From: Halorussus marinus
GTDB lineage: Archaea > Halobacteriota > Halobacteria > Halobacteriales > Haladaptataceae
Direction of reading: 5' to 3'
Assembly: GCF_004765795.1 (NCBI RefSeq)
Contig: NZ_SBIV01000007.1
Span: forward strand, 124,001 to 188,000
DNA: 64,000 bases
Shown here: positions 213 to 27,013 of the stretch, in pieces
How positions within the stretch are numbered: the first letter of the stretch is position 1
How the letters are laid out: each line of letters opens with the position of its first letter
Translations under genes and position numbers: made by a program
Notes under the pieces: model-generated
What the model was told of the DNA's origin: nothing
The model's database searches: none
Seen by the model: the letters and a program-made list of their open reading frames with translations, nothing else

Positions 213-863
213 ATGCGCCTCACGGAGGCTCGTGAAGGGAAAACCAGAACCCAGGTCCTTGCGGCCGTCGCAGACTTACAGCGGAGCGATGGCCCGCCGA
301 TCCAGAAGGACCTCGTTGAGAAGCTCCCGATGACGAAGGGTGCCGTCTCACAGAACTGCAGTCGACTCGTCGAGGAGTCACTACTGCAAGAACACGATGG
401 CCGGTATCGCGTCGATACAGGCCGTCTCCTCGATGATTATCGAGAGCACTTCGAGGAATACCTGCGACGCGCACCACAGAGTGAGCTCTACGAGCAGGAG
501 GTAGCAGATACCAACGAAACCCGCACGCGGACCAAGCGCTCGGCGACTGAGTACTTCGAAGCCGACCTCCTCGAAGACATCCTCCTCACGTCGCTCGTGA
601 GCTCGCTCGGAAAGAACAATATCCAGACCCTCCGGGAGGTGTTCCTGTACACGGACGATATGCTCTACCACGTCGCCTACCGTGCTGTGAGCGCGGAGAC
701 CGACGTGCCAGCAGAACTGAAGCCGATCCTCAGGCTGGCGGCGTGTCTGGACACCAGTCCTGACCTGGTAGAAGAACTCGCGAACAGACACGGTCTCCAC
801 GCCGAACTCGCTGGCCAGTCGCCGGCGACCGAGATCGCCAAACACGCCTACGGAGGAGCCTAA
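213..863 (+). CDS. Winged-helix (MarR-like) DNA-binding protein, first gene of the RM operon
   Basis: A 216-aa acidic protein. Residues about 10-75 look like a winged helix-turn-helix: an ILQ/KDLVEKLPM-type recognition region is followed by a SRLVEESLL helix and a wing (HDGRYRVD). The rest is helical with no motif I recognise. The gene ends 2 bases before hsdM, so it is co-transcribed with the restriction genes, and it is the nearest candidate to bind the inverted repeat at 31-75. Regulators at the head of RM operons commonly time methylase and nuclease expression; that role here is inference. The ATG at 213 is the first in-frame start after the upstream repeat. Confidence 0.7.
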   Translation: MRLTEAREGKTRTQVLAAVADLQRSDGPPIQKDLVEKLPMTKGAVSQNCSRLVEESLLQEHDGRYRVDTGRLLDDYREHFEEYLRRAPQSELYEQEVADTNETRTRTKRSATEYFEADLLEDILLTSLVSSLGKNNIQTLREVFLYTDDMLYHVAYRAVSAETDVPAELKPILRLAACLDTSPDLVEELANRHGLHAELAGQSPATEIAKHAYGGA

Positions 864-865
864 CT

Positions 866-2371: not shown

Positions 2372-3638
2372 CGACGCAAGTCAACAGACAAGTCTGGACG
2401 AGATCGTGGGAGAGTACAATAGAGAGACAGAGGACGAAGCAGTAGATGCTGGTAAACTCCAAGAAATAGATGAATCTCCCGTAGAGGGATGGGAATTGTG
2501 TCGGTTGGGAGAAATATTTTCCTTAGAGTACGGGGAAAACCTCACAGAAGACGCACGGGACGGCGGTCAATATCCCGTTTACGGATCTAATGGACTGGTA
2601 GGTAGTCACTCGGAAGCTTATGTTGATTGTCCTGGAATAATTGTTGGGAGAAAGGGATCGATAGGAGAAGCCGAGTTTTCCGAAGGCCCATTCCACCCAA
2701 TCGATACGACATATTATATCAGCGAATATGAGACGGATGAAAATCTTCGATTTGTACATTATCTCCTTGAGAATATACAGTTAAGTAGGTTAAATGCAGC
2801 ATCAGCAATTCCAGGGCTAAATCGAAATGATGCTTATAGCCTGAAAGGCCTCCTTCCCCCTCTCCAAGAGCAACGTAAAATAGCGAGTGTGATCTATAAC
2901 GTTGATAAAGCGATACAGAAGACAGAAGAAATCATTCAACAAACAGAGCGATTACATACCGGGCTAAGGAGAGAGTTAGTGATAGCGGGGATTGATCATA
3001 CTGAATTTCAAGAGATGCGGGTAGGTCCATTCACCTTAGAAATCCCAGCAAGTTGGGATATTGTTTCTATTGATGAAGCTTGTAAAAACTTAGACAGAGA
3101 CAGAATACCCGTTAAACAAGCAAAAAGGGAAGAAATGCAAGGAGATATCCCTTATTACGGAGCATCAGGTATCATTGATTATGTTGATGACTACCTCTTT
3201 GATGATGATCTAATTCTCCTAGCTGAGGACGGCGAAAATCTACTCTCGCGAAATCTACCAATCTCCTTTAAGATATCTGGCAAAGCATGGGTGAATAACC
3301 ATGCTCACGTACTCAAACCGAGAGAAGGGTTTGATATTGATTATCTAGTGGAATATTTCGAACGATTGAATTATGAGCCGTTTGTGACTGGATCTGCCCA
3401 ACCCAAATTAACACAGACCAATATGGATATGTTGTCAGTACCCAAGCCTCCTGAAGAAGAGCAGACCGAGATCTCGTCAAAACTGACCTCCGTTTCTGAT
3501 CACAAGAATAGAAGTGAGCAATATAAACAACAACTACAGCGATTAAAAAAAGGTCTTATGCAAGACCTCCTCTCGGGCAAGGTTCGAACTCACAGCAAGG
3601 ACATCGAAGTACTCCCAGAGGTGGAAAAACATGATTAG
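2364..3638 (+). CDS. hsdS: Type I restriction-modification specificity subunit
   Basis: About 424 aa with the classical two-fold layout: target recognition domain 1, a central conserved helix (LPPLQEQRKIASVIYNVD), target recognition domain 2, and a second conserved region (PPEEEQTEISSKLTSVSD) ending in LKKGLMQDLLSGKVR. It sets the bipartite recognition sequence and scaffolds two M and two R subunits. I place the start at the ATG at 2364, overlapping the hsdM stop (ATGAGTGA), not at 2340 inside hsdM. Base composition drops sharply: from about 2440 to 3640 the DNA is AT-rich compared with hsdM1 and hsdR, as expected for a recently exchanged specificity gene. The recognition sequence cannot be read from the protein. 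Confidence 0.92.
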   Translation: MSDDASQQTSLDEIVGEYNRETEDEAVDAGKLQEIDESPVEGWELCRLGEIFSLEYGENLTEDARDGGQYPVYGSNGLVGSHSEAYVDCPGIIVGRKGSIGEAEFSEGPFHPIDTTYYISEYETDENLRFVHYLLENIQLSRLNAASAIPGLNRNDAYSLKGLLPPLQEQRKIASVIYNVDKAIQKTEEIIQQTERLHTGLRRELVIAGIDHTEFQEMRVGPFTLEIPASWDIVSIDEACKNLDRDRIPVKQAKREEMQGDIPYYGASGIIDYVDDYLFDDDLILLAEDGENLLSRNLPISFKISGKAWVNNHAHVLKPREGFDIDYLVEYFERLNYEPFVTGSAQPKLTQTNMDMLSVPKPPEEEQTEISSKLTSVSDHKNRSEQYKQQLQRLKKGLMQDLLSGKVRTHSKDIEVLPEVEKHD

Positions 3639-5145
3639 ACATCGTATGCTAACCGATGGTGGTTCTAACGCTCTAGTCAATGCCTTTGAAGAATGTATAA
3701 ATGAGATGGAATCTGACGATGGAATAGATAAGACGGAATACAGAGAGTTCCTGCTTCCTCTCGTCTTCTATAAGACCGCCAACGATACATACCAAGACGA
3801 GTACGAGAACGCCGTCGCCGATTTTGGAGAAGAAATTGCAGGTGAGGATCCTGCTTTCTATCGGCTTCAGATACCGGATGGTCTTTTTTGGGAAGATCTA
3901 ATGTCTACTAATAAGCGGGTTGATGAGACCCTGAATGAAGCTCTTGAATCATTTGAGGAATTAAATTATGATCTCAAAATATCCTTTGAAGTTGATTATC
4001 TATCATTCGATATTAACGAATCGACGCTTAAGACTCTGCTCCAAGAGTTAGATACAATCAATCTGAGTGTCGAGAGTGCTGATTACCAAGCAGTCTCGGA
4101 GGCATACATGGGCCTAATACGGAGATTTGCGGAGGAAGAAAACAGGGACGCTGGGGAGTTCTACCAACCGGAGGAGGTGATAGAGATGGTTGTTCGGATG
4201 TTAGCCCCTTTCGAAGATGGTGACTCATTCTATGATCCAACTGCTGGCTCTGGGGACATGCTGGTCGGCGTTGCGAGCCATTATCGAAAGGAAGGCAGAG
4301 ATCCAAATAAACTGACGCTCGTCGGACAAGAATCGATTAAAGGACTGACAGAAGCTGCCAATCTCAATTTCTTTTTGAACGATCTTGAGGCAGAAATCGA
4401 GGCTGCAGATCCCCTAAATGATCCGATGCAAACGAGCGATGGATCACTGCGGGAGTTTGATTACGTCCTTACCAACTTCCCCTACTCCGAGGATTGGAAC
4501 AAATCCGGGTTGAAGGATGACGCCAGATTCGGGCACGTCGACAAAGATCCCCGCAAAAATCGCGCTGATTACGCCTACATCCTACATATGTACAGTAGTC
4601 TGAACGAGACAGGGCAATTAGCCACCTTGGCACCCCAAGGAGTCCTTTTCAGAGACAACGAGTCTCCGTTCCGGGAATTCCTGATCGACGAGGACCTTGT
4701 CGAGGCGGTTATCAATCTACCAAAGAAGCTGTTCGGTGAAGACACGGGGATTGCCCCTGCAATCTTGTTCCTCAATAAGGACAAGCCCGAAGAGCGCGAA
4801 GGGGAAGTGCTATTCCTCAACGCCGCACACGAGGACTTCTACCGAGAGCTCGATAACGAAAATCAGCTGACTCCGGAAGGCGTCGATAGAGCAGTTGAGA
4901 TATTTAACGAGCGGGTATCAAAAGAACGCAAGTCGAGAGTGGTCGAGGTTGAGGAGATAGAAGAGACGGACTATAATCTCAATCTCGCACTCTACGTCGA
5001 CACCACTGAACCCGAAGAGGATATAAATACGATAGTCGAGGCACAGGAGTTAGCCAAGCTCGAAACCGAACTCTCGGAGATACGTGACCGGATGAAACAC
5101 GATCTCCGAGAGCTGTATGGCGAGGGAGTAAACCAGTATGAGTGA
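3631..5145 (+). CDS. hsdM: Type I restriction-modification M subunit (second, divergent paralogue)
   Basis: A 504-aa N6-adenine methylase with the same domain order as the first copy: an N-terminal helical domain, motif I FYDPTAGSGDMLVG, motif IV TNFPYS and a charged C-terminal helix. Both catalytic motifs are intact, so it looks active and not decayed. Its first third is more AT-rich than its end, matching hsdS. It overlaps hsdS by 8 bases and hsdR by 8 bases, so all four are translated as one unit. Known type I enzymes use two copies of one M subunit; an operon with M1-S-M2-R suggests a mixed M1/M2 dimer or replacement in progress. Confidence 0.9.
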   Translation: MIRHRMLTDGGSNALVNAFEECINEMESDDGIDKTEYREFLLPLVFYKTANDTYQDEYENAVADFGEEIAGEDPAFYRLQIPDGLFWEDLMSTNKRVDETLNEALESFEELNYDLKISFEVDYLSFDINESTLKTLLQELDTINLSVESADYQAVSEAYMGLIRRFAEEENRDAGEFYQPEEVIEMVVRMLAPFEDGDSFYDPTAGSGDMLVGVASHYRKEGRDPNKLTLVGQESIKGLTEAANLNFFLNDLEAEIEAADPLNDPMQTSDGSLREFDYVLTNFPYSEDWNKSGLKDDARFGHVDKDPRKNRADYAYILHMYSSLNETGQLATLAPQGVLFRDNESPFREFLIDEDLVEAVINLPKKLFGEDTGIAPAILFLNKDKPEEREGEVLFLNAAHEDFYRELDNENQLTPEGVDRAVEIFNERVSKERKSRVVEVEEIEETDYNLNLALYVDTTEPEEDINTIVEAQELAKLETELSEIRDRMKHDLRELYGEGVNQYE

Positions 5146-8107
5146 CACCAGTCCCGAACCTGTCGAAACGCCCAGCGAAACCGGCGTCGAGATCGATGTC
5201 CTCCAGTGGCTCGATGAGATGGGCTGGGAGACGTACGGGAAAGACGGCGGCTACGGCGCGACCGTCATAGACCAGCAGTATGACCGCGATCTCTCTGAGG
5301 TCGTCTACTGGGAGATCCTCAAAGAGCAGCTCATCGCGCTGAACGAGAAGTTGGACGAGCGGGAGGCCGACCGGTTTCTCAACTCGTTGCAGCGGGAACT
5401 TCGGACCGAGAACCTCGTCGCGGCCAACGAGAAGTTCACCCAGCTCCTCAGAAACGGAAAGAAGCACACCTACGACGACGGCGAGACCGAATACGTCACC
5501 CTCGTCGATTTCGAGGAGCTCGACGAAAATCGGTGGATAGCAGCCAACCAGTTCCGCGTTCATCGGGAGAAGGCGATCCGGCCCGACGTCGTCTGTTTCG
5601 TCAACGGCATCCCGCTCGTCGTCTGGGAACTCAAGTCGGCTACCCAGGGAAACACCTACCAAGATGCGATCACGGACCTCGTCTCGTATCAGGACGATGT
5701 GCCCCGGCTCTTCGTCCCGGTGCTGTTCAACGTCGCTGCCGACGACCTCGAGTTCAGGTATGGCTCCGTGAACGCGCCGGCGGAGCACTACTACCCCTGG
5801 CGCGATGACGACACGGACCTCGGCAACGACCTCAAAGAGGCGGTCGTCGCGCTCTTCCAGAAGCAGGTGCTGGCGGATCTCCTCGACAGGTACGTCTTCT
5901 ACGAGGAGGCGGCCGGCGGCGATCTCAAGATCGTGCCGCGATACATGCAGTACTACGCGACCGAGGCGATCCTCGACCGCGTCGAGGATCCGGACAATAA
6001 TAGCGGGCTCGTCTGGCACACCCAAGGGAGCGGAAAGTCGTATACGATGGTCTTCGCGGCCTGGAACCTGCTGGAGCGGAGCTTCCTCGACAATCCGCAG
6101 GTCCTGCTCGTCGTCGACACCGACAAGCTCAGGACCCAAATGGAGAACACTCTCTCCAACATCGAGTTCCCGCGGTTCGAGGTCGCGGAGAGTATGGATC
6201 ACCTGCAGGAGCTGCTCGAAGAGGGCAGCAGCAAGCTCGTGCTCACCACGATCCAGATGTTTGAGGACGTCGACGCCGAGGTCCAGACGAACGATGAAAC
6301 CGTCGTGTTCGTCGACGAGGCCCACCGGTATATGGAGAAAGACCTCGGGATAAGCCTCCAGGCGGCCATCCCCGACGCCCAGCACTTCGGCTTCACTGGT
6401 ACGCCCGTCCGAGAAGAGGAGAGAGACACCTTCGACAACTATTCGCCAGAAGGAGAGGAGACGCTTCACCAGTATTCGATCAAGGACGGGATCGACGACG
6501 GCGTCGTTCTCCCGGTGCATTTCGACGTGCGACAGCAGGAGTGGGAGATCGACGAATCCGCGCTCGACGAAGAGTTCGAACGCTCCTTCGCTGATCTCGA
6601 CGTCGAGGAGAAAAGCGAGATCATCCGCAAGCACGTCACGCGCTCCGAACTCGCAGAGCTACGGCCGCGCGTCGAGAACGTCGTACTCGATATCGTTGAC
6701 CACTACGAGGAGAAGGTCGAGCCCAACGGCTGGAAATCGATGGTCGTCACACCCACCCGTCGCGCGGCGGCGCTGTACGGCGAGGAACTCCAGAAACTCC
6801 GCGACCCCGAGGATATCGAGGTCCTCGTGACCTCGCAGGGTGACGACGAGAAGCTCATTCAGAAGTTCCACACGACGAAAGAGCAGCGGGAGTCGATCGT
6901 CCAGCGGTTCAAGAACCCGGACGAATACGAGGACGACCCGAAGATCCTCGTCGTCTGTGATATGCTCCTCACGGGCTTCGACGCCCCACTCCTGAAGACG
7001 ATGTATCTCGACCGGAATCTCAAGAATCACAATCTCCTCCAAGCGATCGCCCGCACCAATCGGCCCGCCGACGGCAAGGTGAACGGCGAGATCGTCGATT
7101 ACGCGGGCGTCTTTGCGAGCGGCAACATCGAGGACGCACTCGAGTACGACGCCGAAACGCGCAACCACGCAGCGAAGGACGTCGACGAACTCCTCGACGA
7201 CTTCGAGGACCTCCTCGCAGAGACGATGAATCTCTTCGAGGAGGTCGAGAAGGTCGACAGCCAGGAGGCAGTGAACAACGCCGTTGCGCTCGCGAACGAA
7301 CATAGGGCGGAATTCGAAGACAACTACGCCCGATTGCAGGACATGTACGAGTCGATCGCCCCCGACAAACGGCTGGAGACACGGGGACTGCGGGACCCGT
7401 ACCAGTGGCTCAACCGGATCCACCTTGCCTATCGGCGGAGTCAGCGCGACCCGGACCCCGAAGAGGACGTGCGGGAGAAGACGCTGGAGATCATCGAAGA
7501 GAACGTCGACGTCGGCGAAATCAAGAACAATACGCCGATCTACAAGATCAGCGAAGAGCACCTCGAGAAGGTCCAGGACCTGGAGCCGAAGGCGAAGGCC
7601 ACCGAGATCGCCCATGCCACGCAGGACCACCTGCAGGGCCGCCGAACCACGAACCCCCGGTACCAGCGCATCAGTCAGCGCGTTGAGCAGCTGGTGAACG
7701 ATTGGCGGTCGGGTGAGCTGGAGGCACCGGAAGTCGCAGAAGAACTCGAAGAGGCCGAGAAAGAGGCTCTCGCTGTTGGTGAGCAACGGGACGAACTCGA
7801 TATGTCCGAGACGGAGTATGCAGTCTACTCCGCTCTCACGGACAGCTACGATGTTGCGGATGATGAAGCCGCTGCGATTGCTGCGGACATCCTCGACGGC
7901 TTCGAGGAGATCGATACCGGCTTCGACGGCTGGCATATGAGTGACCGCGTCCGGAAGGAGATCCGTCAGACGGTGATTCGCACACTGGTGGGCGAGCACG
8001 ACCGGAAGGACCTCTACGACAAAGAAGGGCTAGTCAGAGAGATTGTCGAGTACCTGATCCGCAACGAACAGGCCGAGCCCGACGAGTCTGCACCAGCGGG
8101 AGGGTAA
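5138..8107 (+). CDS. hsdR: Type I restriction endonuclease R subunit
   Basis: A 989-aa ATP-dependent translocase-nuclease. The N-terminal PD-(D/E)XK nuclease is visible as RPD (148-150) and WELK (163-166). SF2 motor motifs follow: Walker A TQGSGKSYTM near residue 300, Walker B VDEAHR, motif III FTGTP, and a second RecA domain with LLTGFDAP and ARTNR. A long acidic C-terminal helical region should bind the MTase core. Length is normal for the family. It overlaps hsdM2 by 8 bases and is followed at once by the metalloprotease gene. It cuts unmethylated DNA at a distance from the recognition site after translocation. Confidence 0.95.
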   Translation: MSDTSPEPVETPSETGVEIDVLQWLDEMGWETYGKDGGYGATVIDQQYDRDLSEVVYWEILKEQLIALNEKLDEREADRFLNSLQRELRTENLVAANEKFTQLLRNGKKHTYDDGETEYVTLVDFEELDENRWIAANQFRVHREKAIRPDVVCFVNGIPLVVWELKSATQGNTYQDAITDLVSYQDDVPRLFVPVLFNVAADDLEFRYGSVNAPAEHYYPWRDDDTDLGNDLKEAVVALFQKQVLADLLDRYVFYEEAAGGDLKIVPRYMQYYATEAILDRVEDPDNNSGLVWHTQGSGKSYTMVFAAWNLLERSFLDNPQVLLVVDTDKLRTQMENTLSNIEFPRFEVAESMDHLQELLEEGSSKLVLTTIQMFEDVDAEVQTNDETVVFVDEAHRYMEKDLGISLQAAIPDAQHFGFTGTPVREEERDTFDNYSPEGEETLHQYSIKDGIDDGVVLPVHFDVRQQEWEIDESALDEEFERSFADLDVEEKSEIIRKHVTRSELAELRPRVENVVLDIVDHYEEKVEPNGWKSMVVTPTRRAAALYGEELQKLRDPEDIEVLVTSQGDDEKLIQKFHTTKEQRESIVQRFKNPDEYEDDPKILVVCDMLLTGFDAPLLKTMYLDRNLKNHNLLQAIARTNRPADGKVNGEIVDYAGVFASGNIEDALEYDAETRNHAAKDVDELLDDFEDLLAETMNLFEEVEKVDSQEAVNNAVALANEHRAEFEDNYARLQDMYESIAPDKRLETRGLRDPYQWLNRIHLAYRRSQRDPDPEEDVREKTLEIIEENVDVGEIKNNTPIYKISEEHLEKVQDLEPKAKATEIAHATQDHLQGRRTTNPRYQRISQRVEQLVNDWRSGELEAPEVAEELEEAEKEALAVGEQRDELDMSETEYAVYSALTDSYDVADDEAAAIAADILDGFEEIDTGFDGWHMSDRVRKEIRQTVIRTLVGEHDRKDLYDKEGLVREIVEYLIRNEQAEPDESAPAGG

Positions 8108-8108
8108 C

Positions 8109-8840
8109 ATGGGTGTGGGCAATACGAGGGCCACAGCCGAAATCGAGATCGCCGGCGAACAGATTGAGTATCGGGTGGTCGAGAGCGCTGACGCGACCCA
8201 ACCCCGGATCGACGTCGACATTCACGAGGTCAAAGTGGTCATCCCGGAGGATGGCGCCGTCGACCCGCACGAATTCGTTCGCGAGAACACTGACTGGCTC
8301 GCTCGGAAATGGCGCAAGTACGACGAGTACCGTGAGCGAGCCCCGGACAGGAGGTTTGAACCCGGCGAGACGTTCCCGTACCAAGGTGACGACCACACTC
8401 TTCGCGTCCGGGACGTGGATGAACACGAAATCACCGACGGGGAGATCGTTCTGGCCAAATATGCCGTCGAGGAGTCATCCATCCAAGACGAGTTAGAGGC
8501 GCTCTTTCGAGAGCAGGCCCGGACGCTCTTCGAGGAAGTAGCAGCGGAGCACGCCGACGAAATGGGTGTTGAGTACGAGGGGCTCGCCGTACGGAACCAG
8601 CGAACGCGATGGGGGAGCTGCTCCCCAAAACAGAACCTGAGCTTCAATTGGCGACTCATTATGGCGCCGCCAGAGATCGCAGAGTACGTCGTCGTCCACG
8701 AACTCGCCCACCTACGGGAGCAGAATCACACCAACCGCTTCTGGCGTATCGTCCGCGAGCAGCTCCCGGATTACCGCGAACGGGCCAACTGGTTAGAAGA
8801 GCACAGCGTGGAGCTCATCTTTACCGAGGACGATCTGTAG
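8109..8840 (+). CDS. YgjP-like (DUF45) zinc metalloprotease associated with type I RM
   Basis: A 243-aa protein with the zinc motif VVHELAHL (HExxH) followed about 20 residues later by acidic residues in the YRERANWLEEH segment. The stretch NQRTRWGSCSPKQNLSFNWR before the motif is the hallmark of the YgjP/DUF45 family. Members are often found beside type I restriction genes, where their job is not settled; turnover of HsdR (restriction alleviation) is a reasonable guess. It starts one base after the hsdR stop, so it is translationally linked. Confidence 0.85.
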   Translation: MGVGNTRATAEIEIAGEQIEYRVVESADATQPRIDVDIHEVKVVIPEDGAVDPHEFVRENTDWLARKWRKYDEYRERAPDRRFEPGETFPYQGDDHTLRVRDVDEHEITDGEIVLAKYAVEESSIQDELEALFREQARTLFEEVAAEHADEMGVEYEGLAVRNQRTRWGSCSPKQNLSFNWRLIMAPPEIAEYVVVHELAHLREQNHTNRFWRIVREQLPDYRERANWLEEHSVELIFTEDDL

Positions 8841-8842
8841 TC

Positions 8843-9412
8843 CTAGTGGCGCTGAAAGGTCACTTGTTGAGGCTCAATATCGGCGTGCGGCGCCGACTGA
8901 ATTGCGTTTTTCACTTCAGTCAGGTCACCGTTGAAGGGTTGCAACGTAGGAGGGACGCGAATAGGTTTGTCTCCTGGGTAATGGTCCTCGAAATCCTGAT
9001 GGTGGACGGGTTTACTCCATGGTTTTGGGACGACATCCCGGTAGTAGTAATGGACTTCATCGGTAAGCTGGATGGGGTTCGGATCGTACTCAGCCTCCCC
9101 ACTGACCGTAAACACGCCTACGACAACCTCCGTAGGTTTCGGGGCATAAACGATTACGTCATCGCCGATCTGGATGTTCTTGTCTTCATCCTCGTGTACT
9201 CCGAGGAATTTGAGCACCGGCATCCGATCATCTCCTGACGGGTTGTCTTCCCGCATCTCGCTGGCGCTGTATTTTCGAAAGTCCCGGTATCTGTCGTCTG
9301 ACAGGTCGCCAACCGACCATCCAATTGATATTTTGTTCTTGATGAGGTAATCTCGCATCAATTCACCATCCCGCCCCGCGTTGAGTATGAGTGCTACTGG
9401 CGTCTCAGCCAT
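8843..9412 (-). CDS. EVE/PUA-like domain protein, possible modified-base reader
   Basis: About 189 aa, convergent with the RM operon (stop codons 2 bases apart). The N-terminus reads AGRDGELMRDYLIKNKISIG then WSVGDLS, and a later segment reads GDDVIVYAP...VVGVFTVSGEAEYDPN. This is the layout of EVE/PUA-fold readers that bind modified bases in restriction systems. No nuclease motif is present. I chose the ATG at 9412 over an upstream TTG. The assignment to the fold is by pattern and not secure; what it reads is unknown. Confidence 0.5.
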   Translation of the reverse strand: MAETPVALILNAGRDGELMRDYLIKNKISIGWSVGDLSDDRYRDFRKYSASEMREDNPSGDDRMPVLKFLGVHEDEDKNIQIGDDVIVYAPKPTEVVVGVFTVSGEAEYDPNPIQLTDEVHYYYRDVVPKPWSKPVHHQDFEDHYPGDKPIRVPPTLQPFNGDLTEVKNAIQSAPHADIEPQQVTFQRH

Positions 9413-9559
9413 ATCCAAGCAGTGACAACCGTCCCCCTTGATATTATGTGATTATGTAGGCCCCGAAAATTGGCGCGTTTGCTATTCTGACTCACCACCA
9501 TATTTAAAATGGTGAATACTTCTACGGGAAAGTGAGAAACGATACTCAAGTACCGGATT

Positions 9560-10094
9560 TTAGCCGAGGTGCGCCCTGAGATGGTCGATTGCCTCTCGCG
9601 CCGTCGCTTCAGACATCGTTCCGCCGATGATGATCTTTCCGCTGGAGAATACAAGGAGCGTGACGTCAAGTTCTGGCGGTCGGTAAATCAGGGCAGGGAA
9701 CTGTTCCGGTTCGTATTCAGTTTGCTCGAGGCCGAGCTTGAGTACTAGCCGTTCCAAATCGAGGCTCCGATCTAACGTCTCCATGAAGACGGCCGTTCGT
9801 TGCTCAAAGGAGTAATCAGGAACCCCCAGCCCCAATCTCATCCAGCAGGTCAAGTAACCGACTCTGTGCTGCCTCAAGATCTGCTTCGGTCTTTGCCCCT
9901 CTGATTTGGATAGTGCCAGTCCGATAGAACTGATACGCAGCGCCATCCGGATCAAGCCGGACCGTAACCATTCCAGACCCGCTGAAATTTGCTGTGACAT
10001 CGTGGTCCACAGCCTCCTGTAGAGCGTCGACGAACACATCGAGATCCAGCTCGCGACCGAGCGAGCCCGAGCCCATCGTACTAACAATCTCCAT
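9560..10094 (-). pseudogene. TATA-binding-protein homologue split by a frameshift
   Basis: The first TBP half-repeat runs from ATG 10094 to a stop at 9816 (ends LLDEIGAGGS). The second half-repeat continues in the next frame (VPDYSFEQRTAVFMETLD, then EQTEYEPEQFPALIYR and the LVFSSGKIIIGG motif) to 9560. The intact paralogue at 10283-10831 runs through the same point without a break, so a single-base indel near 9815-9830 explains the split. It could be a pseudogene, two separately translated half-TBPs (an ATG lies 20 codons into half two), a programmed frameshift or a sequencing error. An inverted repeat of the island family lies 97 bases upstream. Confidence 0.7.
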
Positions 10095-10190
10095 CAGTCA
10101 GGTTGTCACCTACTTCCCCCACCGACTGCTTATCTATTGTTGAATCGCGAGGTAGCCCCTGAAGACAGAAACGGCACAGCCGTGACTCTT

Positions 10191-10237
10191 TCTTACCTAA
10201 CATTAGTCGTTGTCCCGGATACAATTGTTTGGTAAGA
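10191..10237. promoter_or_regulatory. Inverted repeat IR2 (defence-island element, copy 2 of 4)
   Basis: TCTTACCTAAC (10191-10201) faces GTTTGGTAAGA (10227-10237); arm starts are 36 bases apart. It sits upstream of the frameshifted TBP gene (minus strand, start 10094) and just downstream of the intact TBP gene. Sequence after the left arm (ATTAG) also matches copy 3. Confidence 0.7.
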
Positions 10238-10282
10238 CAGTCAGTGAAGAGCCGATCCACATCGCATTTCGACAGGGGCCAT

Positions 10283-10831
10283 TCAGACGACGGCTTGAAT
10301 CCGCCCTCCAAAATCGTCGACCGCTTCGGAGACAGCCTCCAGATCGGTGAGTCCAGTACAAAGGAGTTTCCCGCTCGCGAAGACGAGGATCACGTGGTCC
10401 GCTCCACGATACATCAGCGCTGGGAACTGCTCGGGCTCGTACTCGACGGCGTCCATCCCCAGCTCAAGGGTGAGCAGTTCCAGCGGAATCGGCGAGCCGA
10501 GGTCGCTCGTCGCCACGATATTGCTGATTTCAGCCGCCGGCTCGTACTCGAAGTCCAGCAGCTCACGCATAACCGCATTCACACGGTCGACCATCGTTTC
10601 GAAGTGCTCGATGGACCGACAGCCAGCGATCGAACAGCGCCCGGTCCGATAGAAGGCGACGTACGTGTCGTCGGGGGCAAAGCGCGTCTGTAACCAGTGG
10701 TTATCGGCCGGTTCGTAGGTGACGTCCGTAATTTCGTCCCGCTCGTCGAACGTCTCAGCAAGCGCCGCGAGGTCGAGTTCCTGCTGATAGGTGATCATCC
10801 CGACGACGTTGGCGACCTCGAGCTCCGTCAC
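10283..10831 (-). CDS. Divergent TATA-box-binding protein homologue
   Basis: A 182-aa protein with the two-fold TBP repeat. Repeat 1 has ITDVTYEP...FAPDDTYVAFYRTGRCSIAG; repeat 2 has ISNIVATSDLG...EYEPEQFPALMYR and VILVFASGKLLCTG. The PEQFPALMYR and FxSGK motifs are characteristic of TBP. It lacks some of the usual stirrup residues seen in repeat 1 and is only about 180 aa, so it is a divergent or orphan TBP. No TFB gene is nearby. It lies 109 bases after the helicase gene on the same strand and is probably the last gene of that operon. A dedicated TBP in a defence island could direct island-specific transcription, but a DNA-binding accessory role is equally possible. Confidence 0.82.
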   Translation of the reverse strand: MTELEVANVVGMITYQQELDLAALAETFDERDEITDVTYEPADNHWLQTRFAPDDTYVAFYRTGRCSIAGCRSIEHFETMVDRVNAVMRELLDFEYEPAAEISNIVATSDLGSPIPLELLTLELGMDAVEYEPEQFPALMYRGADHVILVFASGKLLCTGLTDLEAVSEAVDDFGGRIQAVV

Positions 10832-10940
10832 TACCTCGTCGTAGACCGCACCAGGGGAAAAGTCCGACTGATGACGCTCGTACGAACGAATTCACCGGGA
10901 CGACTGCGAAACCCGAGTGAGACGCCGAGGCTGCAACGAA

Positions 10941-13838
10941 TCAATCCCCCTCATTCATGAATTCCTCGAAGGTTTCGGGAACCTCCTCGTCCTCGGTCTG
11001 TTCTTCGTAGTCAAGCGAGTCGGCTTCGAGAATTCCCAGAAAGACCGGCCCTTCATCGGTGACGGTGATCATGTGGTCGGCATCATTGATGATGATGCGA
11101 CCGCCGCCGCGGAGGCGGTGGACGTACTCGGCAACCTCCTCGACTTCCGGAGTCGTGATATACTGACGGCCATCGGCTGTGTCACGAAACGGACGTCCCT
11201 GAGTGTCGACGCTCACAGTCCGCCCACGACGAGGCCCCTCATATGGATCCCCACGTACGAGGTCGGCCGGATCGGGAATCTCCGGTTGTTGATACGCAGA
11301 GACGTCCGGTTCGTGCTCCTTCGAAGGGCCCTCCAGTTCGCCTTTGATGATTTCGTCGCTGGTCTCCCACTTGTAGTAGTGATGGGTGCCGCCGATTTCG
11401 GCCTCCCAGTCGACTTCCTCGAAGATTCGTTCGTCAACTGTATCCTGGGCATAGAGCACGTACAGCGTCGAGGGCTTGTCCGGATCGTGGCCGGTTCGCA
11501 GGATGCGCCCGAGTGTCTGGATGCGATCACGGACGTTTCCAGACGAGACACGAATGATCCCAACGTCTGCCGAGGGGACGTCAACCCCTTCCTTGAGAGC
11601 CTGGACACTCAGCATCACGTTCGCAAACCCTTCGTCCCGGAACCATTCGATTCCCCACTCGTTCCACTCCGAATTGCGGTGCCCGGAGTGGTACATCACG
11701 GGTGCGTAATCGCGACGGAAAAACAGGTTTTCGAGGTCGCGATTGATATCGTCGAGTTCGTCCTCGTACTGTTGGTAGAGACTCGCCCGTTCGCTCTCCT
11801 TCGAGCCATACTTGCCCGTTTGGGTCTTCTCATCCCGCTGATCATACGGGGCGACCATCTGCTCCAGGTGTTTGATTCGTTCCTGGAATACGATCGTCTT
11901 CTTGTCCTCTTCGATTGCGTCCTCGAGGAGACGGTGTGTGATCGCTTGTCGGGAAACCGCCTCGGCGATCAGCTCACGCCGCCGTTTCGTGTACTCGAAG
12001 AAGTCGGCAATCGCCGGCGTCGGCGAGTCCGTCGACTCGCGAATCGTCTGTAGATTCTGTGAATAGTTTCCCCGCAATTCGGCGAGTCGGTGGCCGTGGC
12101 GCGCTTCAATATCCCGAACAGCGGATGACACCTTCTTCGAGAACTGTTCGTAGGTGTGACGTTCGGCCGGCGTTAGCTCGAAGCCGACGTAGTTGATGGT
12201 GAACTCGGAGATGAGGCCGCGGTCAGCTCCCTCGTCGTAACTCAGCCTGTAGAAAAGCGAGCCCAAGTTCTCGAGAAGGAACTCGTCGTCATCGGTGAGT
12301 TCGTCGTTCTCCGGATCGATCGTCGACAGCGGTGTCGCAGACAGCCCCATCGTCGCAGTGTTGGGATATTCGAGGACTTTCGAGTGGACATCTCCCGTAT
12401 ACCGGTGGCACTCATCGGCGACCAAGAGGTGCTCATCAGTATCGGCAGCGTCGAGCGACTGGGCCAGGAAATCGTCCTTGACAGCGGAGTTGACGATGCT
12501 CACGATGATGCGACGGTCACTATGATCGTCTTTGTGGCCTCCTCCCGCCCAGCCGATCTCCGACGGAGGGACGTTCAATTTCTCGAGGAACTCGCGGAGC
12601 CACTGGTGCATCAACACCTTCGTCGGCACAACAACCGTGACGACGCCGTCGGGATGCTTGTCCAGCCACTCGTCGATGGCACCAAGCGCCATCACCGTTT
12701 TACCGGCCCCCGTCACCACCTGCGCGATACCGCGTTCAGATGGGCTGGCCTCGTTGTCGAACCACGTGTCAATCGCTTCAGACTGCCAGTCGTAAAGCGA
12801 AAATCCAGCAGGGAACGTGTACGGTTCTCTCTCCTCGTCAAACGCATTTCTGACGTCCCGGCGGGAGATACCGGGGCTCGCCGCTGAGAGGAGGTCCTTG
12901 GCTTCCGCCTCGGTCTCGGCAGCGAGGATGTCCTCGAGTGTCTCGGCATAGAGTCCAGCGAGATCGCGGCCGTCGATATCATCGAATTTCGCTTTGATTT
13001 GTTCGCTGAGGGTGTCTCGAATGCGTTCATCCTCCTGGTATTCTTCGGACAGATGAATCTGGGGATGAGCCACGTCGCTCTCACGCGACGTCTCACGAAC
13101 ATAGTCGTCGAGGAAGCGGTTGTACAGGCTGCGGTGCCGTCCCCACCCACCGGACTCCCGGTACATGTAGTACTTTACGAGCGCCTGTTTGATGTCAGCA
13201 GCTGGGACATCGAACGTCGGGCCCCGATGATGGATCCACCGTTCGAGGTTGTGGAAGATGTCGACATCCCGCCACCGACCCTCGTAGGTGCTCGATCTAG
13301 GGCCAGGAACGTAGCCGTCGTCGGTTTCCCGGAGCGCACCGAGCTGAGTCAACAGTTCCGGATAGCCGCGTATCCCAGCATCGTTGTACTCGTATCCAAA
13401 CTCGTCGGTCAGCCGTTCACGAATCTCTCCCGCTTGTAACGGCCGATCAGCGTGTCGAACGACGTAATGCGCATCTCGGAGCCCTTCAATTCCTTCCGGA
13501 TAATTGCCTTGGAGAACCCAGCTCTGTTTGATGCCACGCCAGAGGAACTCCGCATACTCGATGTCGCTGTCGTGGAACCGGCGCGCGAACTCCCAGACGG
13601 TGATCTTATCGTCGCGTTCTCTGAGGACACCCATCTGGATGAACGTGGACAGTGTTCGTTCGATATAACTCGGCGAATACCGGCTGCCGTCGGGTTTGCG
13701 CAAGCGCTCACGACAGCGCTCCTCGAACTGATCTCGAGTGAATTCGTTGTCGTTCTCGATAGCGATCTCTACCAGTGTCGGAACCCATTCCGGTCCGCGT
13801 TCAATCCCGAAGATCGGTGTTGGAAAACGCCGTCCCAT
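10941..13838 (-). CDS. SF2 DEAD/DEAH-type helicase with C-terminal copy of the operon's beta module
   Basis: A 965-aa protein. Residues 1-330 hold winged-helix-like segments (RYSPSYIERTLSTFIQMGVL; EIRERLTDEFGYEYNDAGI). The SF2 core follows: a Q-like SLYDWQSEAI, Walker A TGAGKT (376-381), DECH (VADECHRYTGD), GLSATPL, and a second RecA domain with LKEGVDVP and motif VI QTLGRILRTG. The last 90 residues carry a domain with the pattern RLRGGGRIIINDADHMITV...GPVFLGIL, the same pattern as in the two preceding genes of the operon. The core resembles XPB/restriction-type helicases. No nuclease motif is seen in this protein; a nuclease is encoded separately at 17053-18795. Likely role: ATP-driven DNA remodelling in a defence complex. 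Confidence 0.85.
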   Translation of the reverse strand: MGRRFPTPIFGIERGPEWVPTLVEIAIENDNEFTRDQFEERCRERLRKPDGSRYSPSYIERTLSTFIQMGVLRERDDKITVWEFARRFHDSDIEYAEFLWRGIKQSWVLQGNYPEGIEGLRDAHYVVRHADRPLQAGEIRERLTDEFGYEYNDAGIRGYPELLTQLGALRETDDGYVPGPRSSTYEGRWRDVDIFHNLERWIHHRGPTFDVPAADIKQALVKYYMYRESGGWGRHRSLYNRFLDDYVRETSRESDVAHPQIHLSEEYQEDERIRDTLSEQIKAKFDDIDGRDLAGLYAETLEDILAAETEAEAKDLLSAASPGISRRDVRNAFDEEREPYTFPAGFSLYDWQSEAIDTWFDNEASPSERGIAQVVTGAGKTVMALGAIDEWLDKHPDGVVTVVVPTKVLMHQWLREFLEKLNVPPSEIGWAGGGHKDDHSDRRIIVSIVNSAVKDDFLAQSLDAADTDEHLLVADECHRYTGDVHSKVLEYPNTATMGLSATPLSTIDPENDELTDDDEFLLENLGSLFYRLSYDEGADRGLISEFTINYVGFELTPAERHTYEQFSKKVSSAVRDIEARHGHRLAELRGNYSQNLQTIRESTDSPTPAIADFFEYTKRRRELIAEAVSRQAITHRLLEDAIEEDKKTIVFQERIKHLEQMVAPYDQRDEKTQTGKYGSKESERASLYQQYEDELDDINRDLENLFFRRDYAPVMYHSGHRNSEWNEWGIEWFRDEGFANVMLSVQALKEGVDVPSADVGIIRVSSGNVRDRIQTLGRILRTGHDPDKPSTLYVLYAQDTVDERIFEEVDWEAEIGGTHHYYKWETSDEIIKGELEGPSKEHEPDVSAYQQPEIPDPADLVRGDPYEGPRRGRTVSVDTQGRPFRDTADGRQYITTPEVEEVAEYVHRLRGGGRIIINDADHMITVTDEGPVFLGILEADSLDYEEQTEDEEVPETFEEFMNEGD

Positions 13839-13871
13839 GATGTTAGTCGACAGTCATTATTTGAGGGTGCG

Positions 13872-14762
13872 CTACTGATCCGGGTCCATCGCACTGTCTC
13901 CGAAGTAGCTGTTGTCAGTGACCACTGGTTTCGGAACGATCCCTCCGTCGAACTGTGAAATATGACCGAGATACACGGGAAGGAGACCGTTCGCAGCGGC
14001 CTCACTCTCAGTACGGTTCAGTCGACGAGTTACAAGTCGGCGTTCAGCATTCGACGCCGTTCGTTCCCACTCGTCGAAAGCGTCGCGGATCCGTCCCCGT
14101 TCGCTTGAGGGGACTGTATCGCGATCGACATTCCCCCAGATGTGACCGTGTTCGTTGATATAGATCCGCCCGCCCTCTGGACGGAGAGATTTGTACGCCG
14201 CAACAAGTTCCGGATGATCAAAGGCCGATTCAAAGCGGTAGTCCTGCCAGCTCCATCGGAGCACATCATCTGTACAAACCGCCCAAGTCTCGCCGTGATT
14301 GAACGGGAGGCCCGTCCAGATTTCCACGGCGTTCGTGTTGCTGGGCGGCGTAGGGTCGTTGGAGATCTCCTCGAAATCAAAGTCGCCATCGAGCTTGCCG
14401 ACATAAACGGGGATATGACCACGGTTAGCACGGGCCTGCGAAGTCCGTTGATACTGGTCAGCTGGGACTTTTGTCAGTACTTCCCCGGTAGCGGTCAGCC
14501 GAAAGCTCCCACGCCCGTTGGTTTTCCCGAGTTCGGTGAGGGCAGTTTTGAGTCTGCCCGGCCGTTCGGTCATCGCCTGGATGTCGCCCATGTGGCTCCA
14601 CTGGGCCACATCACCGAACTTCCGGGACGAAACGATACTGTATTTCGAACCGCGATATGCAGAGGGCCACGGATGTCCCGGTTCAACCGTCAGCTGTCGC
14701 CGGTTGACGGTCGGGACCTGGGTCGGCTCCTGCCTGAGCGACCCGTTTCCCTCAGCGCTCAT
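13872..14762 (-). CDS. Protein of unknown function, two copies of an unrecognised beta module (B)
   Basis: A 296-aa protein with no match I recognise. It is built of two repeats. Copy 1 runs from GHPWPSAYRGSKYSI through GSFRLTATGEVLTKVP to HIPVYVGKLDGD; copy 2 runs from GLPFNHGETWAV through EGGRIYINEHGHIWGNV to LLPVYLGHISQ. Each has a W/YRG start, a GG(R)xxxxxxxGxVxTxV strand pair and a PVYVGxL end, so it is probably beta-rich. It overlaps the preceding gene by 4 bases (ATGA) and is 33 bases upstream of the helicase gene, whose C-terminus has the same pattern. A shared partner-binding or nucleic-acid-binding module is inferred. Confidence 0.75.
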   Translation of the reverse strand: MSAEGNGSLRQEPTQVPTVNRRQLTVEPGHPWPSAYRGSKYSIVSSRKFGDVAQWSHMGDIQAMTERPGRLKTALTELGKTNGRGSFRLTATGEVLTKVPADQYQRTSQARANRGHIPVYVGKLDGDFDFEEISNDPTPPSNTNAVEIWTGLPFNHGETWAVCTDDVLRWSWQDYRFESAFDHPELVAAYKSLRPEGGRIYINEHGHIWGNVDRDTVPSSERGRIRDAFDEWERTASNAERRLVTRRLNRTESEAAANGLLPVYLGHISQFDGGIVPKPVVTDNSYFGDSAMDPDQ

Positions 14763-15646
14763 CGTGACCCCTCCCCCCGATCGTCGCGGCGGTGATCGTC
14801 TTCCGAGAGATCGCTCTCTTCGTAGGACCCCATCGCGGCGACCCAGGCCTCTAACGAGGCTTCCTCTTGCTCAGAGAGCGGATCGGTCAGCCGGGTCGGC
14901 TCTTCGACTTCGATCGGCCGCTCGTCAGCGGAGAGATGGCCAACGTAGACGGGGACCATATCGACGTTGCCGCGGTCGCGCCGAAGCTGGAGGAACCGTT
15001 TCACCGGGCGAGACAGCTCCCGGAATTGCGCTCGGATATCGGGAGGCGTTTTCTCGTTGGGGATCTGCGTGACGACGTCACCACAGGGCGTGATCACGAA
15101 CCGACCGCCGTTCATCCGAAGCCGTTTCAGCTCGTCGGTGATCTCTCGGGGCAACGTATCGGCAAATGAGTGCCGAAGCTTCGTTTCGCCGTCCTGCCAC
15201 CAGAACCGCTCGCCACTGAACGAGTACGTCGCTCCATCATAGACGCTCTTCCAGAGGTCGCCGGGATCGAGTCCGTTCGGACTGATCGGGACGGCGTGCC
15301 CCGGCTCATCACGGGGGACGAGCCGGCCGTCGAGGTCCATTTGACCGACGTACACGGTCTTGTACGCGTCTGAACTGCCGTCTCCGGTCTCGATTCGCGT
15401 GATAACGGCTCCGCCTTCGGTAACACGGAGAGCGCCACCGCTCCGTTTCAGCTCAAGCAACTCAGTGACGAGGCCGGATGGTACCGGCTCCAGGTCGAAA
15501 CGGTCGGTTCCGTTATACGCCTGCCACCAGATGTCGCCGTCCTGGTTTATGCTCAGCCCGTAGCCACGATAGTGGAACGGCCACTCATCACCAGGACTCA
15601 GCGCGTCGATCGTCGATTCGGGAGTGGATGTCTCGTTATCGGCCAT
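14759..15646 (-). CDS. Protein of unknown function, two copies of the same beta module (A)
   Basis: A 295-aa paralogue of the next gene in the operon. Copy 1: GDEWPFHYRGYGLSI then WWQ, SGGALRVTEGGAVITRI and KTVYVGQMD. Copy 2: GDLWKSVYDGATYSFSG then WWQ, NGGRFVITPCGDVVTQIP and MVPVYVGHLS. The tail is acidic and Arg-rich (SEDDHRRDDRGEGSR). Gene spacing (19 bases from the regulator gene, 4-base overlap with the next) puts it in one operon with the regulator and helicase. Function unknown; together with its neighbour it gives four copies of the module, plus one partial copy in the helicase. Confidence 0.75.
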   Translation of the reverse strand: MADNETSTPESTIDALSPGDEWPFHYRGYGLSINQDGDIWWQAYNGTDRFDLEPVPSGLVTELLELKRSGGALRVTEGGAVITRIETGDGSSDAYKTVYVGQMDLDGRLVPRDEPGHAVPISPNGLDPGDLWKSVYDGATYSFSGERFWWQDGETKLRHSFADTLPREITDELKRLRMNGGRFVITPCGDVVTQIPNEKTPPDIRAQFRELSRPVKRFLQLRRDRGNVDMVPVYVGHLSADERPIEVEEPTRLTDPLSEQEEASLEAWVAAMGSYEESDLSEDDHRRDDRGEGSR

Positions 15647-15665
15647 TGGTGTTAGTCTATTGAGG

Positions 15666-16802
15666 TTATGTGGATTCCGTGTCGTTGGATCGGAACGTCT
15701 CGCCGGCAGCTGTTAGTTCATAGGCAATACCTCGCTGACCGACCTGGCTCCGGTCGACCAGCCCCAGCTCGTACATTCGACTCGTGAGGCCAGAGCGAAC
15801 CGTCTCAGCCTGCGAATTCGACCACTCCGGATTCAGATAAGCCACCCGCTCGGTCAGCGACGTTGGCCGGTTGTCTCCCTCTTCGATTGCTTGAGCGACC
15901 TTTTGCATCGCCGTGTATTCTTCTTCTCGCACGCCCCGTACGTGCGAGATGTAGAACTCCTGCTCCTCCTGTGAGAGAGACGTGTCGGCGTCAACGCCGT
16001 CATCGAGAAGTGGGTTCGAGAGGCTTGCAAATTCCTGGCCAGCGTCCGTGAGCCCGATCTGCGGGGGGCTTTCTCGAACGATGTCGACGAAGGACAGGTG
16101 CGGTAGTGCCCCGGTTAATTCATCGTCGTGCTCGACGCGTCCAATGAAATGCGTCTCGAATCGATCCATCGATTTGTCGGGATCATCGCCCGTGGGCAAC
16201 GCGGCAGCGAGTTTCTCACCTCGTTTGCGCCCCGCTCGCTCGTCGTGTGTTGCGATTTCAGTCCCGATCTCTCGAGCCGTCCTCGCGGCGCGGCGCTGAA
16301 ACGGCTGGAGATCAAGCCACGGACCGTCGGGGAGCCCCTCCTCGGACGAGTCCAGCAAAGCATTCGCTAATCCCCGAACGACCAGCTTGACGGGGAAAAT
16401 ACGATTGTACTGTCCCCAGAGAGGACCTTTGTCCAACCGCGACTCGTCGGGCGGTGCAACCGTCGGAATGTCGTCGTACTGGCGTCGAGCCAGCGACAGC
16501 GTTGTCTCGTTCGTCCGATCAGCCGGCGGAGCATCGTCAGACTGTCGCTCTTGCACCTGTTCGTGAGCCGAATCGTCGGGCTGGGTGCCCTCAGGCGCTG
16601 CTTCTATTTCCGACTCTGGGTCTACAGAATTGAGGGCTTCGTCGAGTGATTTGACCTCCTGGGAAATCTCCTCCTCTTCGAGCTGGATTTGATTCTCGAT
16701 CGCCGTCCGAACGAACTCCTGTGGGTCATCGTAGCTGCCTGCAGCGACAGCGCGTTTCATCCGGCCGACGAGTGAATCGGGCACGTCTATTACGATATTC
16801 AC
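15666..16802 (-). CDS. Ribbon-helix-helix protein with C-terminal winged helix, first gene of the helicase operon
   Basis: A 378-aa protein starting at a GTG. Residues 1-45 (MNIVIDVPDSLVGRMKRAV then SYDDPQEFVRTAIENQIQLE) form a CopG-type ribbon-helix-helix DNA-binding domain. A disordered acidic linker (45-115), a helical middle and a C-terminal winged-helix-like part (LTSRMYELGLVDRSQVGQRG then AYELTAAGE) follow. The promoter has an AT-rich TATA box (plus strand about 16842-16851) and a perfect palindrome ATACTC-TAT-GAGTAT (16830-16844) between TATA and start, as expected for autorepression by a dimeric RHH protein. It may regulate the operon or belong to the complex. Confidence 0.78.
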   Translation of the reverse strand: MNIVIDVPDSLVGRMKRAVAAGSYDDPQEFVRTAIENQIQLEEEEISQEVKSLDEALNSVDPESEIEAAPEGTQPDDSAHEQVQERQSDDAPPADRTNETTLSLARRQYDDIPTVAPPDESRLDKGPLWGQYNRIFPVKLVVRGLANALLDSSEEGLPDGPWLDLQPFQRRAARTAREIGTEIATHDERAGRKRGEKLAAALPTGDDPDKSMDRFETHFIGRVEHDDELTGALPHLSFVDIVRESPPQIGLTDAGQEFASLSNPLLDDGVDADTSLSQEEQEFYISHVRGVREEEYTAMQKVAQAIEEGDNRPTSLTERVAYLNPEWSNSQAETVRSGLTSRMYELGLVDRSQVGQRGIAYELTAAGETFRSNDTEST

Positions 16803-16829
16803 CCTTTGTATCCCCTCGTACCCATTACC

Positions 16830-16851
16830 ATACTCTATGAGTATTTATATT
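16830..16851 (-). promoter_or_regulatory. TATA box and palindromic operator of the helicase operon
   Basis: On the minus strand an AATATAAATA-like TATA box (16842-16851) precedes the GTG start at 16802 by about 40 bases, and the perfect 6-bp palindrome ATACTC/GAGTAT (16830-16844) overlaps its downstream edge. Binding there would block transcription initiation. The RHH product of the first gene is the natural candidate. Confidence 0.55.
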
Positions 16852-16973
16852 TTTCGTGGGTCTGTATGGGTTTGTGTGAGTACGTAAGAGAGCCCTTGAT
16901 ACGACCATTCCGGTGTTCCAGATGCTTTGCTACCTCTACCATTTCCGAGGCTTCTCCTGGAAATCCACCCGTT

Positions 16974-17019
16974 TCTTACCAAACATTAGCGGCGAGTACT
17001 GATCAGTAGTTTGGTAAGA
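16974..17019. promoter_or_regulatory. Inverted repeat IR3 (defence-island element, copy 3 of 4)
   Basis: TCTTACCAAAC (16974-16984) faces GTTTGGTAAGA (17009-17019), perfect 11-bp arms with starts 35 bases apart. It lies 172 bases upstream of the helicase operon's first start codon and between that operon and the nuclease gene. Confidence 0.75.
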
Positions 17020-17052
17020 CACACCCAAAACCAGATAGTCGAGGCCAAGCAA

Positions 17053-18795: not shown

Positions 18796-18840
18796 TATCG
18801 ACTGATTGAGATGGTAATCCGATAAACCAACGCTTCCTGC

Positions 18841-18886
18841 TCTTACCAAACAATTTGTGCTATTTTGTTCCCAACATTTGGTAAGA
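18841..18886. promoter_or_regulatory. Inverted repeat IR4 (defence-island element, copy 4 of 4)
   Basis: TCTTACCAAAC (18841-18851) faces ATTTGGTAAGA (18876-18886), arms differing at one end base, starts 35 bases apart. The near arm sits about 15 bases upstream of the TATA-like box of the nuclease gene (start 18795), a position where haloarchaeal activators bind. Confidence 0.7.
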
Positions 18887-19287: not shown

Positions 19288-19636
19288 TTTGCTTGTGTAA
19301 TGGTTCGCTGTGCGTAATTAAATCATCCTCTGTAGAAGCGCCGTGAAGACGAGATCCATGCTCGAACGAATAGAATGACGTTCTGACTGAAGCCCCATCG
19401 GCCTACAGGTCATCTCAGTCCGGCTTCTGCTCGTTGAGCCAGACACCAAAGTAAGACGCGCCAGTCGTCTCCGGGGATGGGGATCTCGCTTATGGGGAGA
19501 CGAAACAAGTTATCGACGTCGAGCAGTACTGACTGACTCAGATTATTCTTCTGCGAAAGCCTTCTATCCAGCCAAATTGCGGATGAGCAATGTTGAAGCC
19601 CCGCTCGTTTTCATAGTCTATGTCCAAAGTGCAGGG
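19288..19636. other. Intergenic stretch without a recognisable gene
   Basis: About 350 bases between two divergent genes. I see no coding frame, no copy of the TCTTACC repeat and no strong hairpin. It should contain the promoters of both the small unknown gene and the AbiEi-like gene. Confidence 0.5.
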
Positions 19637-20467: not shown

Positions 20468-20531
20468 TGCCAGGTCGGTCCGAAAGGTAGCGTGAATTAA
20501 GATGCTCCCCCAAGTACAGCGAATCAAGTAG

Positions 20532-26974: not shown

Positions 26975-27013
26975 GCTCACCCCATGGACACCATTCATCT
27001 TGAAAGTTCGGTG

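Follow-up and report, generated by a model that had tools for sequence, protein, structure and literature searches.

Why two genes for TATA-binding proteins (TBPs) lie between a restriction-modification (RM) operon and a helicase operon, and what their products may do there, are the questions raised by a locus of the haloarchaeon Halorussus marinus. The DNA analysed, called here the window, is a stretch of 64,000 nucleotides (contig C7, positions 124001-188000) of a 3.76-Mb draft genome, in which Pfam recognizes four TBP genes: a canonical one on contig C2, the window's pair and a fourth on contig C11. A preliminary description of the window had placed one intact and one broken TBP-like gene between the two operons; both statements hold, with an EVE-like gene also lying in between. 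The intact gene, TBPi (10283-10831, minus strand), has a GTG start and encodes 182 aa, identified as a TBP by Pfam, alignment and structure prediction. It matches PF00352 over both repeats in two stretches (E 1.9e-30, 105 bits, family cut-off passed), the N and C repeats scoring 39 and 68 bits, respectively. The second gene, TBPb (9560-10094, minus strand), belongs to a subclade linked to type I RM and is frameshifted, with PF00352 found in two frames, at 9816-10094 (E 2.8e-08) and in the C-terminal half of 9560-10087 (E 9.8e-19). The frame breaks after '..LLDEIG', around 9815-9830, within a G/C run, and its loss may be a sequencing slip. The relatives of TBPb in loci L045, L046 and L047 are single open frames of 177 codons, and the gene is separately damaged in L048 and L056.

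The type I RM operon spans 213-8840 on the plus strand. It is headed by a MarR-like helix-turn-helix (HTH) protein (213-863; MarR_2 E 3.6e-05, under the curated cut-off and kept with the operon), followed by the DNA methylase HsdM (866-2371; N6_Mtase E 4e-84, HsdM_N), the specificity subunit HsdS (2340-3638, recognized by its position and a tblastn match to genes annotated as subunit S), a second HsdM (3631-5145; N6_Mtase E 2e-74), the restriction translocase/nuclease HsdR (5138-8107; HSDR_N, SWI2_SNF2, PADLOC REase_I E 1e-119) and a YgjP-like (SprT-type) metallopeptidase (8109-8840; PF01863 E 6e-57), a recurrent last gene of this operon that is kept in most related type I loci. The low-GC hsdS gene has a third-codon-position GC of 0.38, far below its neighbours, as expected for an exchanged specificity subunit. 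The EVE-like gene (8843-9418, minus strand; EVE E 0.001, under the curated cut-off) lies outside the module: it occurs between YgjP and TBPb in the window only, being missing there in L045, L047 and L048. It is borne by a 738-bp insertion or replacement (8841-9578) that parts YgjP from TBPb, which are merely about 50 bp apart in the close relative L047. On the other side of the TBP pair, the helicase operon (about 10941-18849, minus strand) comprises five genes, the last of which encodes a 965-aa helicase matching the PbeA models of PADLOC (E 6e-47); among the neighbours scanned with PADLOC, from which small proteins could escape, no other Pbe or Dnd families were matched. Its remaining products, of 296, 295, 378 and 598 aa, have no confident family match, the first two being tandem paralogues (about 26%). 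This operon shifts as a block, with 96% DNA identity in L042 and L046, and is possibly an uncharacterised defence system.

The residues by which a TBP grips DNA are altered in one half of both proteins. In an alignment of TBPi with 16 relatives, the C-repeat is of the ordinary TBP type (EYEPEQFPAL.YR, F.SGK), and the N-repeat, with the motif NHWLQT/FYRTG in TBPi, has been rewritten in a conserved form around NHWLQ and TYVAFYRSG, in which N44, H45, W46, L47, Q48, F51, Y57, V58, F60 and Y61 are invariant. The motifs EYEPEQFPAL(I/M)YR and (F/S)SGK, which had been singled out as kept in otherwise divergent proteins, are indeed present, but they are ordinary signatures of the C-repeat; the telling change is in the N-repeat, and instead of a general divergence one DNA-binding half has been rewritten, its new form being conserved. 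When TBPi is mapped on the genome's canonical TBP, its intercalating positions are N44, Y61, F136 and F151. Thus, two of the four DNA-intercalating Phe residues, the N-repeat pair, are replaced throughout the subclade, and the C-repeat pair is kept, together with the TFB-contact stirrup EYEPEQF. The same holds for the TBPb subfamily, which has likewise lost the DNA-kinking N-repeat Phe pair and kept the C-terminal pair and the TFB-contact motif. Established TBP structures have revealed that Leu114, Val122 and Thr124 (yeast numbering) also contact DNA. These N-repeat contacts (Leu114, Val122 and often Thr124) are replaced as well in the TBPi subclade, and their C-repeat equivalents are unchanged or conservatively substituted. 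The AlphaFold2 model of TBPi (pLDDT 92.9) nevertheless predicts the full TBP saddle fold, with a full-length match to solved TBPs (against 1mp9: Z 21.1, rmsd 1.6, 174 residues); in the fold comparison only TBPs were found at high Z. TBPi is under purifying selection, with dN/dS values of 0.06-0.14 against relatives of 93-98% identity, and its N-half is no less constrained than its C-half, so that the N-half is not decaying and appears to have been refitted. TBPi as a decaying paralogue is ruled out by the same values, whereas TBPb of the window does look broken.

The TBPi relatives were searched for in 392 genomes of the order, and the 10-20 kb around them were read. They indicate that the partner of the TBP pair is the RM system and not the helicase operon. 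A TBP as part of the PbeA-like operon is rejected, since the pair occurs with the RM operon and without the helicase in L045, L047 and L048, and that operon is found at 96% DNA identity without this TBP subclade in L042. The question raised in the preliminary description, whether such TBPs recur next to restriction or helicase genes, is thus answered in favour of RM genes and against the helicase operon of the window, which is separable from them. A 1.3-kb block (9579 to about 10870-10878) is conserved between the window and L045, L047 and L048; it contains TBPb, TBPi and about 40 bp before TBPi, and past its TBPi end the sequence in these three loci is unrelated. The edge of this cassette, on the left, coincides with a predicted TBPi promoter of leaderless-type spacing (10832-10878, minus strand, ..TCGGACTTTTCCCC..), conserved in L045-L048, and the expression of TBPi therefore need not depend on the helicase operon. 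The half-TATA look of this promoter (CTTTTCCCC) is restricted to the closest relatives, and no convincing promoter motif shared by the TBPi gene and the hsd operon was found. Loci with HsdR proteins of only 52% identity share TBPi at 97-98%. TBPb tracks the RM operon, with 95% identity between L045 and L046 (HsdR 99%) and 71% between L045 and L047 (HsdR 52%, HsdM 68%), and hence looks like a factor matched to this Hsd family, while recombination appears to have exchanged TBPi as a cassette.

The TBPi subclade (58-98% identity) is found in a scattered set of 17 genomes from several families, the next matches falling to 42% and below. Near-identical copies occur in different families, which argues for horizontal transfer. 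In nine TBPi loci (L045-L049, L051-L053, L056) the partner is a type I operon, window-like or more distant, and in L054 it is another type I-like operon. The partner is a type II/IIG methylase of 970-980 aa in L055, L057 and L060. At L050, L058 and L059 it is a helicase of the PLD/SNF2 type, accompanied by a large second protein that in L050 is a type IIG-like methylase; the class of L057-L060 derives from sequence clustering with annotated members. The TBP homologue on contig C11 (42% identical to TBPi) lies between a DrmMI-like methylase and a DruE-like helicase, with a DrmD-like helicase preceding the methylase (L041), a locus that resembles the ARMADA layout described in PMC12458937.

The extent of this association was surveyed in 44 genomes of the order, whose TBPs were listed by Pfam; among the matches listed, the accessory ones and ten canonical controls were fetched with their flanks, and each TBP was classed by its intercalating residues and by its neighbours. 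Paralogues and damaged copies within one locus were counted singly. Among the matches listed, an RM, BREX or ARMADA-type gene lies within about 2.5 kb of 24 of the 27 TBPs with an altered N-repeat, and of none of the 21 TBPs whose N-repeat pair is ordinary, one of which carries a single change. Fisher's test gives p 1.8e-10 for this difference, a value that overstates independence, as the rows are kin by descent and the loci partly shared. In two exceptions, L149 and L152, Eco57I/N6 methylases lie at about 3-5 kb; no DNA methylase is found in the flanks examined of the third, L148. Among 67 near neighbours of the N-altered set the Pfam families include N6_Mtase (13), ResIII (11), Eco57I (10), HSDR_N (8) and Methylase_S (5). 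By contrast, among 64 neighbours of ordinary TBPs, none of the 25 most frequent families is N6_Mtase, Eco57I or HSDR_N; HisG and other housekeeping families are found there. The defence association claimed in the preliminary description is thereby strongly supported, and N-altered TBPs accompany DNA methyltransferase-based defence systems as small accessory modules, in the window beside a type I RM operon. It could be argued that accessory TBPs, like RM systems, are mobile cargo of plasmids and come together by chance or shared mobility, as plasmids or variable regions harbour many N-altered copies, TBPi has moved from one RM operon to another, and a tbpC knockout of NRC-1 showed no evident phenotype (PMC2121645). 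Such hitch-hiking is quite improbable in our judgement, given that ordinary accessory TBPs were never seen beside RM genes among the matches listed, that adjacency or overlap is immediate across many RM types and in viruses, and that purifying selection is strong.

A tree of 82 TBPs, quickly built, with many open forks and an uncertain deep order, places the N-altered TBPs on one side of a starred branch (SH-aLRT 96), except for L182 and L148, which form long branches. A search of contigs, which gave mostly canonical TBPs among the matches listed, was used for outgroups and the structure alignment only. Starred supports of 99 were obtained for the TBPi subclade, for the TBPb subclade and for a group formed by the TBP of plasmid pNRC200 and other helicase-overlapping TBPs, and one of 97 for a group of TbpC of Halobacterium sp. 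DL1 and a BREX example. TBPi thus lies on the same side of the branch as the pNRC200 and DL1 proteins, in a separate subclade. Haloarchaeal TBPs that have lost the N-terminal Phe pair and kept the C-terminal one have been described as a TbpC-like group that may lack function or be highly specialised (Becker et al. 2014, PMC4230888). TBPi shares with this group the state of both Phe pairs, the haloarchaeal hosts and the sporadic occurrence, but identity between the window's NHWLQT subclade and the proteins of pNRC200 and DL1 is no more than 32-36%. Complete N-altered members retain the C-repeat Phe pair and the EYEPEQF stirrup in nearly all cases. Canonical TbpE-type and accessory TbpX-type TBPs have the same two-repeat saddle fold and C-repeat motifs as TBPi; they differ from it in possessing all four intercalating Phe residues (one accessory with a single change) and in the absence of RM neighbours among the matches listed.

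Further examples come from named plasmids and species. A Halobaculum magnesiiphilum plasmid carries the helicase operon, TBPi, an intact TBPb, SprT/YgjP, HsdR, HsdS and HsdM; on PL100 of Haloquadratum walsbyi C23 a TBP adjoins SprT, HsdR, HsdS and HsdM; in Halobacterium sp. DL1 the 'TATA-box-binding protein C' is downstream of HsdR, and plasmid TBPs of Haloplanus aerogenes and Halorientalis IM1011 also adjoin restriction genes. A grouping with ordinary plasmid TBPs found without defence context is therefore unsupported: the closest relatives are plasmid TBPs, yet they stand beside restriction genes. On pNRC200 of Halobacterium NRC-1 the TBP VNG_RS11040 overlaps the SNF2 helicase VNG_RS11035, which itself overlaps an Eco57I-type methylase. 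As the sole pNRC200 TBP found with an altered N-repeat (YYFF at the intercalating positions, FF in others), it is probably tbpC, because that gene is defined by the loss of the N-repeat Phe in PMC4230888. Its start overlaps the stop of a BrxHII-like helicase gene, as do those of the TBPs of Halorubrum lacusprofundi pHLAC01 and a Halorientalis marina plasmid, and in the BREX locus of Haloarcula halophila a TBP has an Eco57I methylase on one side and PglZ on the other, with BrxL after these and BrxC upstream. A long-branch TBP (YTFF; L182:6662-7228), placed outside the main N-altered clade and flanked by BrxHII and PglZ genes, may have been recruited to BREX independently. In the reverse test, a TBP or TBP fragment is present within 1.5 kb in 18 of 30 close BrxHII-like helicase loci and in 5 of 30 HsdR relatives, the window's own pair lying just beyond that distance; TBPs are frequent with the BrxHII-like system and optional with the HsdR system.

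Overlap of the TBP start with the helicase stop in ARMADA-like loci and the position inside the BREX operon would fit a co-expressed subunit equally well. The TBP would then take part in defence itself, as a subunit that binds DNA by its C-repeat, bends or positions it, and helps a methylase or SNF2/SF2 translocase to engage or discriminate its target. The frequent adjacency to BrxHII-like genes would agree with this, and a precedent is offered by Mot1, a known SNF2 ATPase acting on TBP (PMC4565979). In its broadest form, this proposal holds that methylation-based immunity (type I, type IIG, BREX, ARMADA-like) of archaea and haloviruses took over a TBP-fold protein as a recurring component, probably following an ancient duplication in haloarchaea, the protein acting in a defence complex on DNA and not in transcription; both the subunit role and this wider version are tentative and rather doubtful. 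Most type I loci can do without the TBP, the window's hsd operon is open with a broken TBP next to it, the position and orientation of the TBP relative to its partners vary, several partners are lone type IIG-like enzymes without a translocase (L055, L062, L184), and the retention of the TFB-contact motif would be needless.

In a phage collection only two haloviruses have a TBP match, both beside RM genes: the TBP of HRTV-9 follows a type IIG enzyme, and that of HJTV-2 has an N4-cytosine methylase and an Eco29kI-type endonuclease nearby. A TBP beside the virus's own RM genes is seen in three tailed haloviruses or virus-like contigs, L272:3468-6745 (HJTV-2), L273:1-4031 (HRTV-9) and L252:3582-8031; two of the three TBPs were examined, and both are N-altered (GAFF, YYFF). 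The N-altered TBPs in general could be competitors that keep the TFB-binding half and bend DNA weakly, an abundant TBP sequestering TFB and damping the transcription of the virus (or the cell) in infection. The conserved TFB-contact motif, the degraded N-repeat DNA face and the presence of TBPs in two haloviruses would agree with such a role, but the C-repeat DNA-intercalating pair is likewise kept, the virus TBPs lie beside the viruses' own RM genes, so they are not a host-only weapon, and the linkage to methylases is left unexplained; we regard it as unlikely. The sensing of virus takeover, suggested in the preliminary description, has found no specific support.

The mechanism that we infer from the clade, the linkage, the selection, the fold model and the residue changes is that TBPi and TBPb are defence-dedicated TBPs, mobile initiation factors or attenuators that would express or time the adjacent defence system, a reading that we judge to have an even chance of being right. 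Control of island promoters by the TBP is plausible. In archaeal complexes the C-repeat Phe residues and the TFB-contact motif hold the upstream part of the TATA box and TFB; the retention of the C-repeat with the loss of the downstream pair thus predicts a TFB-recruiting factor that chooses other promoters or uses them more weakly. The TBP would bind promoters by its C-repeat together with TFB, tolerating a poor downstream half of the TATA box, and would act on its own gene and on the defence genes nearby, as an initiation factor or attenuator dedicated to them. Methylation and restriction would thereby be expressed at a controlled level or time, and the plasmid would bring its own control of modification and restriction. 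The absence of a TBP near 25 of the 30 HsdR relatives, and its broken state in the window with the RM operon open, indicate an accessory and not an essential component, as expected of a regulator. Promoter selection by TBP and TFB paralogues is known in haloarchaea (TbpD/TfbA, PMC2121645). Promoter control is therefore the leading interpretation, followed by the complex subunit, with TFB competition and hitch-hiking less likely, and computation does not separate them. No cognate TFB was found within the window. In L062 only, a TFB paralogue (L062:2277-3293) is found about 3 kb upstream of the type IIG-like gene and an N-altered TBP, and is possibly its cognate TFB.

Under promoter control, the TBP would be an archaeal functional counterpart of the bacterial RM controller (C) proteins, made from a general transcription factor. 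C proteins are helix-turn-helix repressors or activators; the proposed role is alike, that of a small accessory regulator beside RM genes, but TBPi has the TBP fold and no HTH. TBP-family proteins encoded with defence genes are already known from the TOTE/TALON systems (Aravind et al. 2022, via PMC12458937). What defines these systems is TPR-OB/cold-shock fusions and effectors of the RNase H or NERD type, and TALON is largely limited to Chloroflexota. Such partners are unlike those of the window, among whose neighbours (213-25434) Pfam found no TPR-OB, TPR-cold-shock, RNase H or NERD-type families. The partners of the wider TBP clade (BrxHII/DrmD helicases, DrmMI/PglX-type methylases, DruE/YprA-type helicases, PglZ, BrxL) are those of ARMADA, DISARM and BREX, and a TBP is not among the components listed for these systems in PMC12458937 and PMC12839542. 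N-altered (TbpC-like) TBPs are themselves known; Becker et al. 2014 (PMC4230888) nowhere use the word 'restriction', and an RM link of TBPs is unmentioned in that paper, in two surveys of archaeal and haloarchaeal RM, in the 2026 papers on archaeal immunity and BREX and in the Pbe paper. No earlier report of a tie between haloarchaeal TBPs and RM, BREX or ARMADA-like loci and halovirus RM was found in the open-access papers searched. The numerous haloarchaeal TBPs have so far been explained by environmental regulation, and the TbpC-like group was left as possibly non-functional. The tight link to restriction, BREX and ARMADA-like systems gives this group a testable role, its likely job being to control or assist antiviral defence, and suggests an unlisted component for several defence systems. 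It also provides a candidate answer to how archaea might time restriction versus modification, and the TBP-RM module in haloviruses suggests a shared RM control on both the virus and the host sides.

Farther along the window, an AbiEi-like antitoxin gene is followed by a 291-aa gene without a Pfam match (19577-21407, plus strand), possibly an AbiE-type toxin-antitoxin pair. At 25704-26998 (minus strand) a ParA-like partition ATPase is accompanied by a small acidic partner, which would fit a plasmid or mobile region.
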